Source: Anaerolineaceae bacterium (lineage in GTDB: Bacteria; Chloroflexota; Anaerolineae; Anaerolineales; Anaerolineaceae). From it: a DNA stretch of 64,000 nucleotides. Every line of letters begins with the position of its first letter. Position 1 is the first letter of the stretch. The notes beneath the pieces were generated by a model. It was given only the letters and a program-made list of their open reading frames with translations. It was not told the origin of the DNA and did no database searches. Location of the stretch: the NCBI GenBank assembly GCA_002702705.1, contig PABH01000014.1, positions 124,001-188,000 of the forward strand. The letters are read 5' to 3'. A program made the position numbers and the translations under genes. This document shows positions 3,051 through 10,873 of this stretch, piece after piece.

Positions 3051-3728
3051 TTGAATAAAAAGACAATTGATGGCGACAATAATAAAAATCCGGATCATAA
3101 ATTTTCTGGGATTCCGCTGCCCAAACCCTTTTTGATTTGGCAGTCGAAGGCGCGTTTGGAAGCTTTCAAAAAAATGAAGAAAAACCATTCTGGTGCTGTC
3201 CGAACCATGCCAGCCCATTTACCCGTTCTGGCGACCTTTGGTGAGGGTGATTTCCCTGTCAATTTAACTACGCGCGGGATTGGCCTGCTTCCAAAATCAG
3301 AGGTTATAAAGGAAATTACCAATGACTTGGAAAGTACAATCCGAGAAACAAAAGGAAAACCCTGGCCAGAAACCCTGTCACAGCGATTAACTTCCATCCG
3401 CAAGTTTTATGAAAACCCCGATTTATTTGATGAAACCCGGTTGGGTGGTTTGGAAATTTTTGAAGGACAGACCTTAAAAAATTTAAAATCAAATTCGCGG
3501 GCAGCTTTGTTATATACGGGTGCTGCTCCTGCTTATGCCAGTTACCAATTTAATGGGGTCGTGCAGTTAATTAATCAAGATGATCCTTGTTACCGGTTTT
3601 TGTTAGCTGCCAGAGAATTGTTTGCACAGGATGCGTTTCACATTCATCAAATTTATTATCCCTATGGATATTTGTTTTATCCGGTAGAAATTAAAGACAA
3701 AACCCCATTTCCACGGAGGGCACACTGA
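3051..3728 (+). CDS. Conserved-context protein of unknown function
   Basis: This 225-residue protein starts at a TTG preceded by GAAAGGA at a good distance. I do not recognise the family. It is soluble, with no signal peptide or membrane segment, a basic N-terminus and an aromatic-rich C-terminal third (HIHQIYYPYGYLFYP). Its stop codon overlaps the ATG of the following universal-stress gene by one base, which suggests translational coupling and a shared role. It lies 149 bases after the CydA-like pair and may belong to the same transcription unit. Confidence 0.6.
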   Translation: MNKKTIDGDNNKNPDHKFSGIPLPKPFLIWQSKARLEAFKKMKKNHSGAVRTMPAHLPVLATFGEGDFPVNLTTRGIGLLPKSEVIKEITNDLESTIRETKGKPWPETLSQRLTSIRKFYENPDLFDETRLGGLEIFEGQTLKNLKSNSRAALLYTGAAPAYASYQFNGVVQLINQDDPCYRFLLAARELFAQDAFHIHQIYYPYGYLFYPVEIKDKTPFPRRAH

Positions 3729-4924
3729 TGTACCAGAAAATACTGGCAGGATTGGATGGATCAGCTTGGTCAAACTACGCGATTGAGACGGCGGTTTCGT
3801 TGGCACAAAAAAACGCATTAACACAGTTGATTGGATGCCATGTCTATGCAGCAGAATTACACCGCGAGCGGTTTGAGCAAATGGAACCAGGACTGCCTGA
3901 ACAATATCAGGCAGAAGAGAAATTAAACAGCCTGCGAGGTACCCATGAAAGCTTAATTACGGATGGAATGGTTTTGATTTCTGATTCGTATCTGGCTCCC
4001 TTGTTGAAAAAAGCGCAACAGCAGCAGATTAATGTGAGCGGTTTGATCCCGGAAGGGAAAAACTATGCAGTTTTATTAAAAGAAATCAGCACTCACCAAC
4101 CCGATCTAACAATACTGGGGGCAATGGGTCATGGCGCAGTACCGGAAGCCCGCTTGGGTTCCCTGACAGAGCGGGTGCTGCTGTTTCGGAAGACTTCGGA
4201 TTTATTGATTTTAAGGCAGCCCTGGAATTTTAAAAATCGTCCCATTGTGGTTGGAATTGACGGCAGCCAGAATAGTTATTTGGCTTTGACGCGTGCCATC
4301 CAGATTGCACAGGCTTACCAAACCTCGGTGGAAGCTGTGGCAGTTTATGATCCTTTTTTCCATGTGGGTGTCTTCCGTGTCATCGCGGATGCTTTACCGG
4401 AGGCTGACCAGAAACGGTTTGATTTTCCGGCCCAGGAACAACTTCACGATGAGATCATTGATAAAGGATTGGAAAAACTATATCGTGAGGGATTGGAGCG
4501 CGGGGTCTTGCTGGCAGAACAGATGGGGGTTAAAATAAGGATCGAAGTTTTGGCCGGTAAAGTTTATCCGCAGCTTCATCATTATGCACAGATGAGAAAT
4601 GCCGGGTTGACCGTGGTTGGACAGACCGGTTTGCATTGGGATCCGATTTCGTTAATCGGATCAAATACACTTCAACTGGCGCGGATAAGCAATTCAAATC
4701 TCCTGGTGGTTAATCCCTCGAAAAAACAACTTGAAATTCCAGAATTACCAAAACAAGAAGAAGTACCATTAAGTTGGACCCCACAGGCAGAAGAACGCCT
4801 GAAACGGATTCCGTTTTTTGCGCGCGGTATGGCAAAACGATCCATTGAAGACCAGGCACGCCAGCAGGGATTGGCAGAGGTAACCGAAGCATTTGTGAAA
4901 GAAATGAGATCGATGATGAAATAA
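3728..4924 (+). CDS. Double universal-stress protein with PCP_red C-terminal domain
   Basis: 398 residues with two UspA folds in tandem, roughly 1-160 and 172-325. Both carry the ATP-binding G-2x-G-9x-G(S/T) pattern (GAMGHGAVPEARLGS and GQTGLHWDPISLIGS). Residues about 349-398 match the PCP_red module (WTPQAEERLKRIPFFARGM), a small helical domain first named from light-independent protochlorophyllide reductase and often found fused to other proteins in non-phototrophs. The function is probably nucleotide-dependent stress signalling near respiratory chains (inference). It overlaps the preceding unknown gene by one base. A strong terminator follows. Confidence 0.8.
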   Translation: MYQKILAGLDGSAWSNYAIETAVSLAQKNALTQLIGCHVYAAELHRERFEQMEPGLPEQYQAEEKLNSLRGTHESLITDGMVLISDSYLAPLLKKAQQQQINVSGLIPEGKNYAVLLKEISTHQPDLTILGAMGHGAVPEARLGSLTERVLLFRKTSDLLILRQPWNFKNRPIVVGIDGSQNSYLALTRAIQIAQAYQTSVEAVAVYDPFFHVGVFRVIADALPEADQKRFDFPAQEQLHDEIIDKGLEKLYREGLERGVLLAEQMGVKIRIEVLAGKVYPQLHHYAQMRNAGLTVVGQTGLHWDPISLIGSNTLQLARISNSNLLVVNPSKKQLEIPELPKQEEVPLSWTPQAEERLKRIPFFARGMAKRSIEDQARQQGLAEVTEAFVKEMRSMMK

Positions 4925-6302: not shown

Positions 6303-7211
6303 TTAGGCTCCTTTTTCCTCAGGGTCCAACAAAACGATTAAACCCATGGCGGCCATGTTAGCGTATAAGAGGGGCGCGATGAATGGCGCCCCCCTCAAAA
6401 ATCGCTCAAAAATAATTTTTCCGCCGGCGGTCAGGTCATATCGCACGTGAAAATAAAAACCGAGTACACCGACCACACCCATCAGGATCATGGCGGTGAT
6501 GTAAGTGACCAGATCGCTGTAATCCGGATGTTGTTTTAGCGCAATCAAAAACGAAACCACTGCTGCAAAGATGGGCACCACCAAAGGTAGCCATAACCAC
6601 GGGTTTTCAAAACCGGTGCGGGCATGATCTAAAGTGGCGCTGACCAGGGTTACCAGGATGCCAAAACATACCATCAGGAAGTAGGCCTGGGTTTTGCTGT
6701 AGGGCATCTTTAAAGTACGGTTGCCGGGTAATTTCAGGATGCCGCTGTTGGTGGGGTGTTCGATCCAGGCGGCGCTCATGCCGAGCACGCCAACCAACAC
6801 AAAAGCAAGGGGTGCCATGCCGGGCGGGGCCCAGATCAGAAAACTGATATTGAGCCGTTCTGCCAGTGCTCCATAAGGTTGTATTCCGCCGCGGGTCAGA
6901 TGAAAATACGATCCCATAAACCCAACGACAATACTGGCGATAAAAACACCCGTGGCAATGAGTGAAGCTAAATTTCGATTGCGGTAGGCCAACAGCCCGG
7001 CGAGCAGTAACAACACACCTGCTGCGCTACCAAAAATAATCGGAATCCATTCGTTCCAACGGATGGTGCCATTTAATCCATGGGCTAGATACGTATCCAG
7101 CCCCATGAAAAGTTCGTTAATGGCTGCGATCAACAGGATTAATTGATCTCTGGAAACAGGCAGCTTTTTAATTCTTCTTAAGAAGGGGAAAACGTCAGCT
7201 AAATAATACAT
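6303..7211 (-). CDS. Eight-helix membrane partner of the HAO-like cytochrome
   Basis: A 302-residue integral membrane protein with about eight helices and no named family that I recognise. It is internally duplicated: residues about 20-150 and 172-298 repeat the same four-helix plan. H44 (AHGLNG) matches H196 (DHARTG), and H104 (SYFHL) matches H255 (FYFHV), with the copies about 151 residues apart. Four regularly spaced membrane histidines suggest two b-type hemes (inference). It follows the octaheme cytochrome gene by 3 bases on the same strand. It is therefore a good candidate for the membrane anchor and quinone-reactive module that feeds or drains the cytochrome. This gene order differs from the NrfH-type partner usual for bacterial HAO-like proteins. 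Confidence 0.65.
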   Translation of the reverse strand: MYYLADVFPFLRRIKKLPVSRDQLILLIAAINELFMGLDTYLAHGLNGTIRWNEWIPIIFGSAAGVLLLLAGLLAYRNRNLASLIATGVFIASIVVGFMGSYFHLTRGGIQPYGALAERLNISFLIWAPPGMAPLAFVLVGVLGMSAAWIEHPTNSGILKLPGNRTLKMPYSKTQAYFLMVCFGILVTLVSATLDHARTGFENPWLWLPLVVPIFAAVVSFLIALKQHPDYSDLVTYITAMILMGVVGVLGFYFHVRYDLTAGGKIIFERFLRGAPFIAPLLYANMAAMGLIVLLDPEEKGA

Positions 7212-7214
7212 GGT

Positions 7215-8486
7215 TTATTTCGCATTGTTAAATTTTTCTTCTGCGATGGCTTTTAACTCAGACATGCTGTGTAAAATCTCATACGCCCCATGCCACTGCA
7301 CATAATCGGGACCTTGCATCCATGTCCCAAATTTCGCAGTACGGCCCCAATGGTGCCACAAGTTGAAATGGGTGAAATCAAACGGTTCGTCAAAGGGTGC
7401 GTCTGTTAATAAACCAGCGGTTTTTAATTCATCACGGATGACATCACTCTCCACGACAAAGTCGTTGACTGCTTCTGTGGCGGCATCGGCTTTGGTGTAA
7501 AACTCATCAATAAAATTCTCATTGTGACATTCTAAACATACACTCTGCATACGGACGATATTATCCTGGTAAGCAGGGCGGCGTTCGCTGATCGGTGCAA
7601 ATAAATACCAGGCTAAGCGGTCACCGACATCATGCGTGGTGGTGGCGCTGCCAAAACCACTCATGTGGCAGATAGCACAGGTAGCGGCGGGAAAATCAGC
7701 CGCGTCCATTGTGCCTGGGTCGGCATCCCAATTCCAATTATCACCACCAGTAGCATAGGCAATACCGTGGGGGGATTCCTGATAAATTTCCCACTGCGGG
7801 TGATCCGGGCCAATGTGACAGGCATTACAGGTTTCTGGTTTACGGACCTGTTCGAGGCTGAATTCGTGGCGCAGGTGGCATTTTTGACATTGTCCAACCG
7901 ATCCATCGGGGGCGGGTTTACCGATATCATGGCAGGTCTTACAGGCAAATTCGGTAATCGCTTCGCCTTCCAGTTCAAATAAGGCGTTGCGGCTTTTGCC
8001 CGGTGCATAACTGCCTTCGGGAATATTTTGATACATCGTCAGGTGTTCTTCGCTCATGCCGACTGTGCCATTATAGGCCACGTAAGCTGGCAGTCCATGG
8101 CGACTCTGATTAAATTGGGCAACTTCGGCCGTATGGCAAACCTGACACATCTCTGTGGTTGGTGAGTTTAATACGTACGTACCTTCATGTTCAACCGAAC
8201 CGGGATAACCCGCAGCGACCTCATGACAATCTTCACAGGTCACATCGGCACGGGCCATACTGCTGACGCCGTATTGTTCCACAATGCCGGGGGTGGTGTT
8301 TTTGTGGCAATTAACACATTGATTGTTGCTGTTGCTGAGTACGTTAATTTCTTCCGGTTTGGCATCCACAGTGGCTCGATTGACCGATAACATGGCAATG
8401 ATCACACTCAACACGAGTATAACCACGATGAGACTGATGACCAAAATTCGTCCAACGAGTTGTTTCTTTTGGGTACCTTGCTGCAT
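7215..8486 (-). CDS. Octaheme c-type cytochrome, hydroxylamine-oxidoreductase-like
   Basis: 423 residues with an N-terminal signal anchor (about 11-33) and eight CxxCH heme motifs (CVNCH, CEDCH, CQVCH, CKTCH, CQKCH, CNACH, CAICH, CLECH). The segments CAICHMSG followed by THDVG, and GPDYVQWHG near the C-terminus, are typical of the HAO family. Family members oxidise hydroxylamine or hydrazine, or reduce nitrite, on the outer face of the membrane. Direction depends on a tyrosine cross-linked to the active heme, which needs an alignment to judge here. It is transcribed ahead of the membrane partner, 3 bases apart. In a Chloroflexota setting nitrite or hydroxylamine reduction seems more likely than ammonia oxidation (inference). 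Confidence 0.82.
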   Translation of the reverse strand: MQQGTQKKQLVGRILVISLIVVILVLSVIIAMLSVNRATVDAKPEEINVLSNSNNQCVNCHKNTTPGIVEQYGVSSMARADVTCEDCHEVAAGYPGSVEHEGTYVLNSPTTEMCQVCHTAEVAQFNQSRHGLPAYVAYNGTVGMSEEHLTMYQNIPEGSYAPGKSRNALFELEGEAITEFACKTCHDIGKPAPDGSVGQCQKCHLRHEFSLEQVRKPETCNACHIGPDHPQWEIYQESPHGIAYATGGDNWNWDADPGTMDAADFPAATCAICHMSGFGSATTTHDVGDRLAWYLFAPISERRPAYQDNIVRMQSVCLECHNENFIDEFYTKADAATEAVNDFVVESDVIRDELKTAGLLTDAPFDEPFDFTHFNLWHHWGRTAKFGTWMQGPDYVQWHGAYEILHSMSELKAIAEEKFNNAK

Positions 8487-8645
8487 TAATAACTCCTCTC
8501 CCAGAACATTAAAATTAGATTAATCTATTGTAAATTAATTTTCCTTTAATGTAAATAAATAAGACTAAACTAGTCCAATTAAGATAAAAGACTCTGAATT
8601 CCGATTTGATTTATTCAGGTACAATTAAAAAAAGGAAGATACCTC

Positions 8646-9743
8646 ATGAAACAAAATATTTACGAATTTATTCTGAATGAATTGGAAAACAAAAAACCGG
8701 TTCTATTTGCCACTATTTTTAAACGCAGTGGATCTTCCCCGCGGGGTGCCGGTGCGTTTATGGTCTTATCCCAAGATGGCCGGATGATGGGAACGATTGG
8801 TGGTGGAAAAGTGGAAGCTACCATCCGTGACAATTTGGGAGAATATCTGACCAAAAGCCAATCTCAAATTATTCAATTTCATCTATCTGAATCAGATGCT
8901 GCAGACCTGGATATGATCTGTGGGGGGAATGTTTCGGTACTGGTAGAAAGCATTTTACCAAATCAAACAGCTTTGATTAAAATGCTGGCTGTGATGAAAG
9001 AAACCACCCAAACCCAAACTAACGGCTGGTTGGTGAGCCAGGTACCATCACCAGATGCGCAAGAAGGTTTGGGTGTGAAAAAAGCATATGTTTTACCGGA
9101 TGGAACTGTTTCCGGTAATTGGGATATTAAAGTTGAAGTTAAAAACCAGCAGTTGATTTCGATAACCCTGCCGGAAGGAAATCAAATAGATACCCAAGGT
9201 TATCAGATCAACCGCCAGGCACAATTAATAAAAAAGTGTTTTATTGAACCGATTGGACATTTTAGCAAAGTGTTTTTGATTGGGGCAGGGCATATAGCGC
9301 AAAAGTTGGCATTAATCACATCAACGGTTGGATTTAAAACCATCGTCTTGGATGATCGTGCTGAATATGTTTCTAAGGAGCGTTTTCCTTTCGCCGATTC
9401 CTTAATTGTTTTACCGGATTTTAAGAGTGTTTTCTCCGGATTAACGATTGACAGGGATAGTTACCTGGTTATTGTCACCAGGGGACATTCTTCAGACAAG
9501 GATGTCTTAAGCCAGGCGCTGCGAACCGAGGCGGGTTATATTGGAATGATTGGCAGCAAACGGAAGATTCTAACCACATTTGATTTATTAATGCAGGAAG
9601 GTGTATCACAAGAAGCATTAAATAAGGTGCATACACCAATTGGGTTATCCATTGGAGCAGAAACACCTGAGGAGATAACCATCAGTATTGTCGCTGAATT
9701 AATTCAAGAACGAGCAAAAATAAAAGATCTAAAAAATAAATAA
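8646..9743 (+). CDS. XdhC/CoxI-family molybdoenzyme maturation factor
   Basis: 365 residues with the N-terminal XdhC_CoxI domain (KRSGSSPRGAGAFM, then GTIGGGKVEA, residues about 20-60; CGG near 97) and a C-terminal Rossmann domain (FLIGAGHIAQKLA near 220; VTRGHSSDKDVL; GYIGMIGSKRK). Family members bind molybdenum cofactor, help sulfurate it and insert it into xanthine dehydrogenase-type enzymes. No such enzyme is encoded in this window, so its client lies elsewhere. It is divergent from the HAO-like gene. An AAGGAAG-like ribosome site precedes the ATG. Confidence 0.87.
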   Translation: MKQNIYEFILNELENKKPVLFATIFKRSGSSPRGAGAFMVLSQDGRMMGTIGGGKVEATIRDNLGEYLTKSQSQIIQFHLSESDAADLDMICGGNVSVLVESILPNQTALIKMLAVMKETTQTQTNGWLVSQVPSPDAQEGLGVKKAYVLPDGTVSGNWDIKVEVKNQQLISITLPEGNQIDTQGYQINRQAQLIKKCFIEPIGHFSKVFLIGAGHIAQKLALITSTVGFKTIVLDDRAEYVSKERFPFADSLIVLPDFKSVFSGLTIDRDSYLVIVTRGHSSDKDVLSQALRTEAGYIGMIGSKRKILTTFDLLMQEGVSQEALNKVHTPIGLSIGAETPEEITISIVAELIQERAKIKDLKNK

Positions 9744-9801
9744 AAAATTCTACAGTTAACACCAATTCTGCCTACAATAGGATCAGGAAAGGTGCATATT
9801 T

Positions 9802-10188
9802 ATGACTTCAGAGCGTTTACAGGAAGCCATTGATTTTATTCAATCGGAAAAGATTGATGAAGCAAAAGAAATTTTATTAGAAATGGTGAAACAACCGTTT
9901 CCTTTTGCGGATTCCTGGTATATGTTGATGCATTGTATGCCCACAAAACGCCAAAAAATTTGGTGTTTGGAAGAATGTTTGAGAATCAAACCGGATCATT
10001 CCGATGCTTTAACCATGTTAGGGCTTTTGGATCCGGAGCATCAGTTTTATTCCGGTGAGAAGTTTAAACACCAGAAAAATAAAAAGACTGAGTCTGACGA
10101 AGAAGAGGAAGTAAGTTGGGTTGTGGTGTTGGCAACGGTTGGCAGTGTTTTGGTTGTCACGGCAGCGGTTATTTTGATTTTTTCTTGA
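9802..10188 (+). CDS. Small TPR-like protein with C-terminal membrane anchor
   Basis: 128 residues. The first 75 look like two helical TPR-type hairpins (AIDFIQSEKIDEAKEILLEM; CLRIKPDHSDALTMLGLL). A charged linker rich in K and E follows, then one membrane helix (about 104-127) at the very C-terminus. This makes it a tail-anchored scaffold candidate. Its function is unknown. It follows the XdhC-like gene by 58 bases and has an AGGAAAGGTG ribosome site. Confidence 0.65.
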   Translation: MTSERLQEAIDFIQSEKIDEAKEILLEMVKQPFPFADSWYMLMHCMPTKRQKIWCLEECLRIKPDHSDALTMLGLLDPEHQFYSGEKFKHQKNKKTESDEEEEVSWVVVLATVGSVLVVTAAVILIFS

Positions 10189-10192
10189 TTTC

Positions 10193-10873
10193 TTATAGGC
10201 TATTTTCAGTGAATATTAAGCCATAGGTTCGATTTTCGACGGGGTGATCGACTAGCTTTTTCCAGTGATCAGCGGGGGAAGTTCCTAAAAGTCGAAACCC
10301 AAGCCGTTCATAAAGTTGGCAGGCTGTTTTATTTTCACTCGTCGTTTCGAGATATACCCCGGGAATATTTTCTTCAATTAGCTGGTCAAAATAAGTACGC
10401 ATGAGTTTGCGGCCAATCCCATAACTACGCCAGTTTTGATCAACATTGATATGTAAGTGAGCAGGATATTTTTGCGGGTCTATCACCACATCTTTCTTTT
10501 TTCGATTCGCTTTGAATAAATTCCACAAATAAATCCAAGATTTTTTTCCGGTTTTGTAATGACCCCGTAAAAATAGAGCCAAAAATTGCGGCAGCAGTTG
10601 TTGGGTAAACATTTCTTTTTGTTTGGCACTGTCCGTGCCGCCGGTCAGGAACCCAACCACTTGTTGGTTGGCCTCCGCAATCCAGGCATGTTCTGGCTCA
10701 AAGTCGGTGTAATAACGGTAAAAAAGGTCAAGAAAGATTTTCCGGTCTTCCAGATAAATCTCGATCGGGTCACCAAAAAAGGCCGTGTCGGCCGCGATTT
10801 TAAAAAGTGATTCTCGGTCGGCAGGTGTAAATGGCCTGATTGTAATAACGGTATTATTTGCAATCCATTTCAT
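10193..10873 (-). CDS. GNAT-family N-acetyltransferase
   Basis: Acetyl-CoA-dependent transferase of unknown substrate. The core starts at ITIRPFTPADRESLFKIA, and the acetyl-CoA loop is in NWRSYGIGRKLMRTYFD, followed by GVYLETTSENKTACQLYERLGFRLLG. I prefer the ATG at 10873, which gives 226 residues beginning MKWIANN and has a GGAAC site upstream. The longer reading back to 10951 adds a basic leader without a ribosome site. Its end is 4 bases from the convergent TPR-like gene. Confidence 0.83.
   Translation of the reverse strand: MKWIANNTVITIRPFTPADRESLFKIAADTAFFGDPIEIYLEDRKIFLDLFYRYYTDFEPEHAWIAEANQQVVGFLTGGTDSAKQKEMFTQQLLPQFLALFLRGHYKTGKKSWIYLWNLFKANRKKKDVVIDPQKYPAHLHINVDQNWRSYGIGRKLMRTYFDQLIEENIPGVYLETTSENKTACQLYERLGFRLLGTSPADHWKKLVDHPVENRTYGLIFTENSL

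Follow-up and report, generated by a model that had tools for sequence, protein, structure and literature searches.

Two adjoining genes lie on the reverse strand of the window, by which we mean the whole 64,000-nucleotide stretch of Anaerolineaceae DNA analysed here. The first (7215–8486, reverse strand) encodes a 423-residue octaheme cytochrome c that belongs to the HAO family and has a hydrophobic N-terminal anchor. Three bases downstream, the second (6303–7211, reverse strand) encodes a duplicated four-histidine membrane protein of 302 residues with eight long predicted helices, a putative quinone-linked di-haem-b subunit. The original prediction had read the locus as just such a pair, and the open reading frames, their strands, the three-base gap and the Pfam and PDB-profile matches all agree with it.

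The eight CxxCH haem sites of the cytochrome, all on the reverse strand, occupy residues 57–61 (8304–8318), 84–88 (8223–8237), 114–118 (8133–8147), 182–186 (7929–7943), 200–204 (7875–7889), 220–224 (7815–7829), 270–274 (7665–7679) and 317–321 (7524–7538); counted in order, the fourth corresponds to the catalytic haem 4 of HAO. Asp228-His229 (7800–7805, reverse strand) aligns with Asp267-His268 of Nitrosomonas europaea HAO, which we take to have an active-site role. The protein matches the Pfam family Multi-haem_cyto at 1.1e-27, and a nine-member octaheme profile retrieves from the PDB, at E ≤ 0.001, only HAO-type chains (8 distinct sequences, the best being 4qo5 at 1.8e-41; 6m0p matches at 4.5e-30). 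The eight motifs and the similarity to solved chains place the protein in the HAO-type octaheme cytochrome fold family; this assignment rests on sequence, as the structure prediction for the octaheme protein reached a pLDDT of 41 and was set aside.

The gene pair is fixed in its clade

The survey of the window's class covered 396 genomes, of which 76 have a Multi-haem_cyto match and 50 a match to the membrane-protein profile. The membrane match is full-length or nearly so in 44 of these 50, the window's own genome included (it is in two pieces in G547 and G670 and cut at a contig end in G618); the remaining six genomes hold short or weak matches, among them G472, whose match is a split form linked to a GMC dehydrogenase. 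Without exception in the 44 genomes, the octaheme gene precedes the membrane homologue on the same strand, and in 42 the two same-strand matches lie no more than 800 bases apart. At contig breaks, an octaheme C-terminal fragment touches the start of the membrane gene in G670 (locus L148), and an octaheme C-terminus lies directly upstream of the membrane gene in G484 (loci L005 and L151 are identical in sequence). Wide DNA was examined for 40 of the 44 paired genomes, and G636, G672, G700 and G714 were judged from match places alone. The gap between the two genes is at most 450 bases in the 43 loci measured and falls between −10 and 5 in 24 of them. A scan of genome contigs returned seven loci, six with a full octaheme ORF upstream and the seventh being L005. 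The distances of the two proteins correlate across 43 pairs (Mantel r 0.85, with 0 of 2000 permutations as high). The octaheme cytochrome and the four-histidine protein are a pair fixed in their clade, and they co-diverge.

In a tree that combines 44 octaheme proteins of the pair with 34 further HAO-like sequences from the class, and from which short or cut ORFs (<380 residues or <8 CxxCH) were left out, all the paired proteins fall on one side of a branch supported at 100/100; four of the 34 others (L219, L222, L223, L224) come from genomes that also have the pair. An ORF with four CxxCH motifs, an NrfH-like tetraheme, adjoins 18 of the 34 other HAO-like genes (the one of the 18 scanned with Pfam matches Cytochrom_NNT at 2.4e-30), which accords with the premise of the original prediction that HAO-like proteins pair with NrfH-type cytochromes. 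Because such an ORF stands beside over half of the other HAO-like genes, we describe the four-histidine protein as occupying the NrfH slot. An N-terminal membrane domain is fused to the octaheme protein in four more of the 34 (L176, L177, L178, L209), recognised by Pfam as CopD plus cytochrome b5 in L176 and L177 and judged by eye in L178 and L209; L207 is counted as unfused, its long frame being an upstream artefact. These CopD-like/cytochrome-b5-like fusions to octaheme HAO-like proteins are another possible quinone link. Neither a tetraheme nor a fused partner appears in the stretch examined for the remaining 12 of 34 (one of the 12, L210, is truncated by the end of its contig), so that a dedicated partner is not universal.

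No third conserved gene is universal in the 46 paired loci, many of which are short. A Crp-like regulator recurs in 9 and ccm relatives in 8 (one member of each was scanned with Pfam). The latter, relatives of ccmE, ccmF and a thioredoxin-like gene lying downstream of the pair in loci of which several are short, would suit a membrane protein that handles haem for, or assembles, the octaheme cytochrome, and CcmC and CcmF do carry histidine ligands in the membrane. An assembly factor is nonetheless very unlikely: the protein is missing beside the other HAO-like genes of the class, and its GMC-linked relatives, described below, have no multihaem c-type cytochrome to assemble.

Several other haem protein genes were seen around these loci. 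Distant octaheme ORFs in L222 and L224 are followed by multihaem ORFs with 9, 7 and 8 CxxCH motifs (L222) and 9 (L224), in frames that may overlap. On the forward strand of the window, 289–1635 and 1645–2901 encode two neighbouring proteins that resemble cytochrome bd subunit I and that both carry, by Pfam, a cytochrome c domain at the C-terminus; in L002 a similar pair of bd-subunit-I-like proteins (7759–10329) is found close to the octaheme pair. The forward strand also encodes, at 3728–4924, one protein in which universal stress domains are followed by a PCP_red domain.

A duplicated membrane protein with four invariant histidines

No model of Pfam or NCBIfam recognises the 302-residue protein above a curated cut-off. 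Its best NCBIfam match, SLATT_1 at 0.011, falls under that model's cut-off, and a Pfam scan of 24 family members gives scattered weak matches, the best being DUF6320 in 2 of the 24 at 7.6e-5. The two halves of the single sequence align with each other (BLASTP E 5.8e-7), as do half-profiles in hhalign, at E 1.4e-38 with 24 sequences and 1.3e-10 with 10 octaheme-linked sequences only. The internal duplication is not due to chance. It brings two histidine pairs into register between the halves, at the matching positions given in the original prediction: His44 (7080–7082), at the end of helix 1 in the first half, with His196 (6624–6626), at the end of helix 5 in the second, and His104 (6900–6902), at the end of helix 3, with His255 (6447–6449), at the end of helix 7, all on the reverse strand.

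The window's protein has six histidines, and the two beyond these four are not conserved. Nine positions, H44, P57, G97, G100, H104, P130, P134, H196 and H255, are invariant across 60 distinct full-length proteins (46 octaheme-linked and 14 GMC-linked, 18 to 74% identical to the window's, ORFs shorter than 270 residues having been dropped), and among the invariant residues there is no Cys, Met, Asp or Glu. The original prediction had hung on the conservation of the four histidines, and on this point it stands. All four are also kept in five more full-length, plasmid-borne relatives, and split or single-half relatives (L045, L051, L158; L055, L057 and two on plasmids) carry one histidine pair per half. 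A single-half, GMC-linked example is WP_151845439 of Deinococcus.

An AlphaFold2 model built from 8 sequences (pLDDT 75, pTM 0.76, with low confidence near residues 266–273) consists of eight long helices, with the four histidines at or near the ends of helices 1, 3, 5 and 7; in the model they would share one membrane face. Positive-inside charge counts are ambiguous as to topology. Searches of the PDB with the modelled fold gave results at the noise level of helical bundles (best Foldseek E 0.03; best VIA Z 9.2 at 5.1 Å, to rhodopsins), and the fact that no cytochrome b, NrfD or CtaA is among the best 50 of either search is uninformative either way. Two known identities were rejected. The protein is not of the NrfH/NapC type, having no CxxCH, no Cytochrom_NNT match and eight long predicted helices. 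Nor, on profile evidence, does it belong with CtaA/Cox15: hhalign against 16 CtaA rows gives E 0.13 over 32 columns, in a comparison that used script-picked frames and recovered 3 of 4 expected histidine columns, and PF02628 is found in none of 24 members.

Two invariant histidines per predicted four-helix bundle are a usual pattern of bis-histidine haem b. We propose that the 302-residue protein comprises two such bundles, each of which would hold one b haem between its two invariant histidines, on the same membrane face. The histidines might instead bind a metal ion or quinone directly, in which case there would be no haem b and the protein would still be the quinone link. NrfD-type subunits link to quinone without haem, and no known haem protein was matched here by sequence or fold; but the histidine arrangement is a usual one for haem b, and invariant Cys, Met, Asp or Glu residues are lacking, so we regard binding without haem as unlikely. 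Less probable by far is a passive anchor, or a channel for a substrate such as nitrite, ammonium or NO. That the protein always adjoins the enzyme in this clade would suit either role, but all 44 long paired octaheme sequences have a hydrophobic stretch of their own ahead of the first haem site, and four invariant histidines common to the GMC-linked family would be left unexplained; we give this possibility the least weight of all.

Relatives of the membrane protein beside GMC dehydrogenases

In a search of the phylum, the membrane protein was found in 34 of 400 genomes, 3 with close and 31 with distant homologues. Gluconate_2-dh3-like and GMC-like ORFs are present in all 19 distant Chloroflexota loci examined wide, which represent 18 of the 31 distant phylum genomes plus G472 of the class survey (the GMC ORF of L041 is cut at a contig end). 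ORFs with at least two CxxCH motifs occur in none of 27 short distant loci and nowhere near in the 19 wide ones. The family also matches 26 plasmid records. A GMC gene is present in each of the seven inspected, and an annotated subunit 3 in six of the seven, by a gene table that is incomplete; these plasmids span Acidobacteriota, Deinococcota, Pseudomonadota and Actinomycetota, and their membrane gene is annotated 'hypothetical protein'. By its sequence similarity and its two histidine pairs, the window's protein belongs to this GMC-linked family. The four-histidine partner of the octaheme cytochrome comes from a broader family, other members of which go with GMC dehydrogenases. The original prediction had allowed that its case would fall if the membrane family occurred mostly without the cytochrome; within the clade, where 44 of 44 are paired, it holds, and for the superfamily, with its GMC-linked members, it does not.

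The order TPP enzyme, enolase-superfamily protein, four-histidine protein, gluconate-2-dehydrogenase subunit 3, GMC oxidoreductase recurs in three phyla, for instance in the plasmid loci L227, L229, L231 and L232 and, among Chloroflexota loci, in L048; in some cases an additional gene is interposed. The third subunit of canonical gluconate 2-dehydrogenase is a quinone-linked cytochrome c, and in plasmid locus L230 a c-type cytochrome gene lies two genes upstream of the four-histidine relative. In a tree of the halves, those of L054 and L056 join at 100/96 and the octaheme-linked halves at 91/88, at a point where long branches meet, which is suggestive of separate duplications of the half.

The GMC and subunit-3 partners carry no signal peptide, as judged by eye where the start is readable, and so look cytoplasmic. 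This creates a puzzle of topology, since the octaheme partner, as a c-type cytochrome, is necessarily outside. It would be explained if family members occurred in both orientations, if electrons passed across the membrane or if the histidines played another role.

Probable direction of the octaheme enzyme

The cross-link tyrosine of HAO, Tyr467, sits in the motif HVNPGGWTY, and its aligned counterpart in the window's protein is Trp398 (7293–7295, reverse strand), in a sequence alignment anchored by eye on a common proline. Tyr395 lies three residues away, and an alignment shift that would place it at the cross-link position is unlikely. Tryptophan occupies this place in 43 of the 44 long paired octaheme sequences, and the 44th (L150) ends before it. 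In the window's protein, Met390 precedes the tryptophan by eight residues. According to passages of two papers (PMC8940962, PMC12758564), the cross-linked tyrosine marks oxidative HAOs, and the former describes tryptophan in its place, with methionine eight residues earlier, as the pattern of epsilon-Hao; Met390-Trp398 conforms to that pattern of reductive HAO. For the reductive ancestor from which the anammox enzymes derive, PMC12758564 infers that the cross-link site held histidine, not tryptophan. With Trp398 at the place of Tyr467, the protein does not qualify by its sequence as hydroxylamine dehydrogenase (oxidative HAO, EC 1.7.2.6).

Reduction is favoured by the tryptophan that replaces the cross-link tyrosine, and the octaheme enzyme is probably reductive rather than oxidative. 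The original prediction had singled out this tyrosine as worth aligning and had offered a nitrogen-oxide reductase as one reading of the pair; the residues found there make its reductive direction probable. Electrons could also flow the opposite way: the octaheme enzyme would take them from a substrate such as hydroxylamine, and the membrane protein would hand them on to quinone. To judge from their partners, the GMC-linked relatives probably do pass electrons from an oxidation to the membrane, and all 44 long sequences retain Asp228-His229 of the HAO pocket. The loss of the tyrosine to tryptophan in 43 of 44, the other being cut, nevertheless argues against oxidation under the rule just cited (PMC8940962, PMC12758564), and we consider the opposite flow distinctly unlikely.

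Matches above model cut-offs to NrfA, hybrid-cluster protein, NarG, NapA and Cu nitrite reductase are absent from the window's genome; below the cut-offs there are weaker matches for NrfA, NarG, NapA and Cu nitrite reductase, and none for hybrid-cluster protein. There is therefore no obvious nitrite source or follow-up step, and nitrite respiration by the window's enzyme is not evident, given that none of these five scored above its cut-off; detoxification of NO or hydroxylamine is possible. Two NrfH/NapC-type matches elsewhere in the genome could be alternative partners of the octaheme enzyme. The genome also holds three clustered multihaem cytochrome ORFs with 10, 7 and 9 CxxCH motifs on contig C15 (L225, 4414–10223) and, on contig C21 (L226, 5969–9080), a five-CxxCH NrfH-like ORF that adjoins a 755-residue ORF with a twin-arginine-like start.

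A candidate quinol-linked complex

We infer that the two gene products may form a membrane-bound complex, respiratory or detoxifying. The four-histidine protein would oxidise quinol and pass the electrons to the octaheme cytochrome, anchored outside the membrane, whose fourth haem would be the site where a nitrogen oxide is reduced, be it nitrite, NO or hydroxylamine. The membrane protein would thereby fill the part assigned to an NrfH-like protein in sister HAO-like systems. This arrangement, a quinol-oxidising di-haem-b subunit feeding an outward, reductive octaheme enzyme, is the reading that we favour, though with moderate confidence. The window's membrane protein is a clade-fixed partner of an HAO-like octaheme cytochrome and goes unnamed in Pfam and NCBIfam; occupying the NrfH slot, it is most likely a di-haem-b subunit linked to quinone.

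More tentatively, and as an idea that we hold to be plausible rather than probable, the four-helix, two-histidine half may be a hitherto undescribed quinone module with haem b, occurring in single, split and duplicated form across at least five phyla. It would serve cytosolic GMC dehydrogenases, with electrons coming in, and, in one Chloroflexota clade, an outward reductive octaheme cytochrome, with electrons going out, which would imply opposite membrane sides or orientations and more than one duplication. The work provides a first functional handle on the GMC-adjacent 'hypothetical protein' of five phyla, with four residues to mutate. The window's class of Chloroflexota is common in wastewater and sediment, and guesses at its role in nitrogen cycling are often based on 'hao' annotations.

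Comparison with known systems

In searches of open-licence PMC papers, none of the titles and abstract openings listed describes an octaheme cytochrome paired with a four-histidine membrane protein. Several characterised systems resemble parts of the pair. CtaA/Cox15, the haem A synthase, likewise has eight helices in two halves, each with a histidine pair at a spacing similar to that in the four-histidine protein, but the two have no profile similarity. The octaheme cytochrome IhOCC of Ignicoccus hospitalis (4qo5), the best PDB match, has Phe, not Trp, at the aligned cross-link position. Gluconate 2-dehydrogenase consists of a GMC subunit, subunit 3 and a cytochrome c, and the first two of these adjoin the distant four-histidine relatives; such loci have no multihaem cytochrome c and no signal peptide, and the window's pair has no GMC partner.

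In the anammox Rieske/cytochrome b complex (Kuste4569–4574), by the account in part of PMC12954380, an HAO-like octaheme cytochrome is tied to a membrane part with b haems, as is proposed for the window's pair. That complex has a b6-like cytochrome b, a Rieske protein and an NAD(P) oxidoreductase, none of which is recognised among the Pfam-scanned neighbours of the window's pair.

The reverse hydroxylamine:quinone redox module of Nautilia profundicola, as set out in a portion of PMC3701875, consists of HaoA and the NapC/NrfH-type CycB. As in the window's pair, an HAO-like octaheme cytochrome there does without the critical tyrosine, and electrons from quinol are proposed to reach it through a membrane cytochrome (PMC3701875). 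The window's genome differs in having no hybrid-cluster protein and no NapA above the cut-off, and the N. profundicola partner is a c-type tetraheme rather than an eight-helix, four-histidine protein. If our reading is right, the pair adds a new route by which HAO-like enzymes are coupled to the quinone pool, besides NrfH-type cytochromes and Rieske/cytochrome b complexes.
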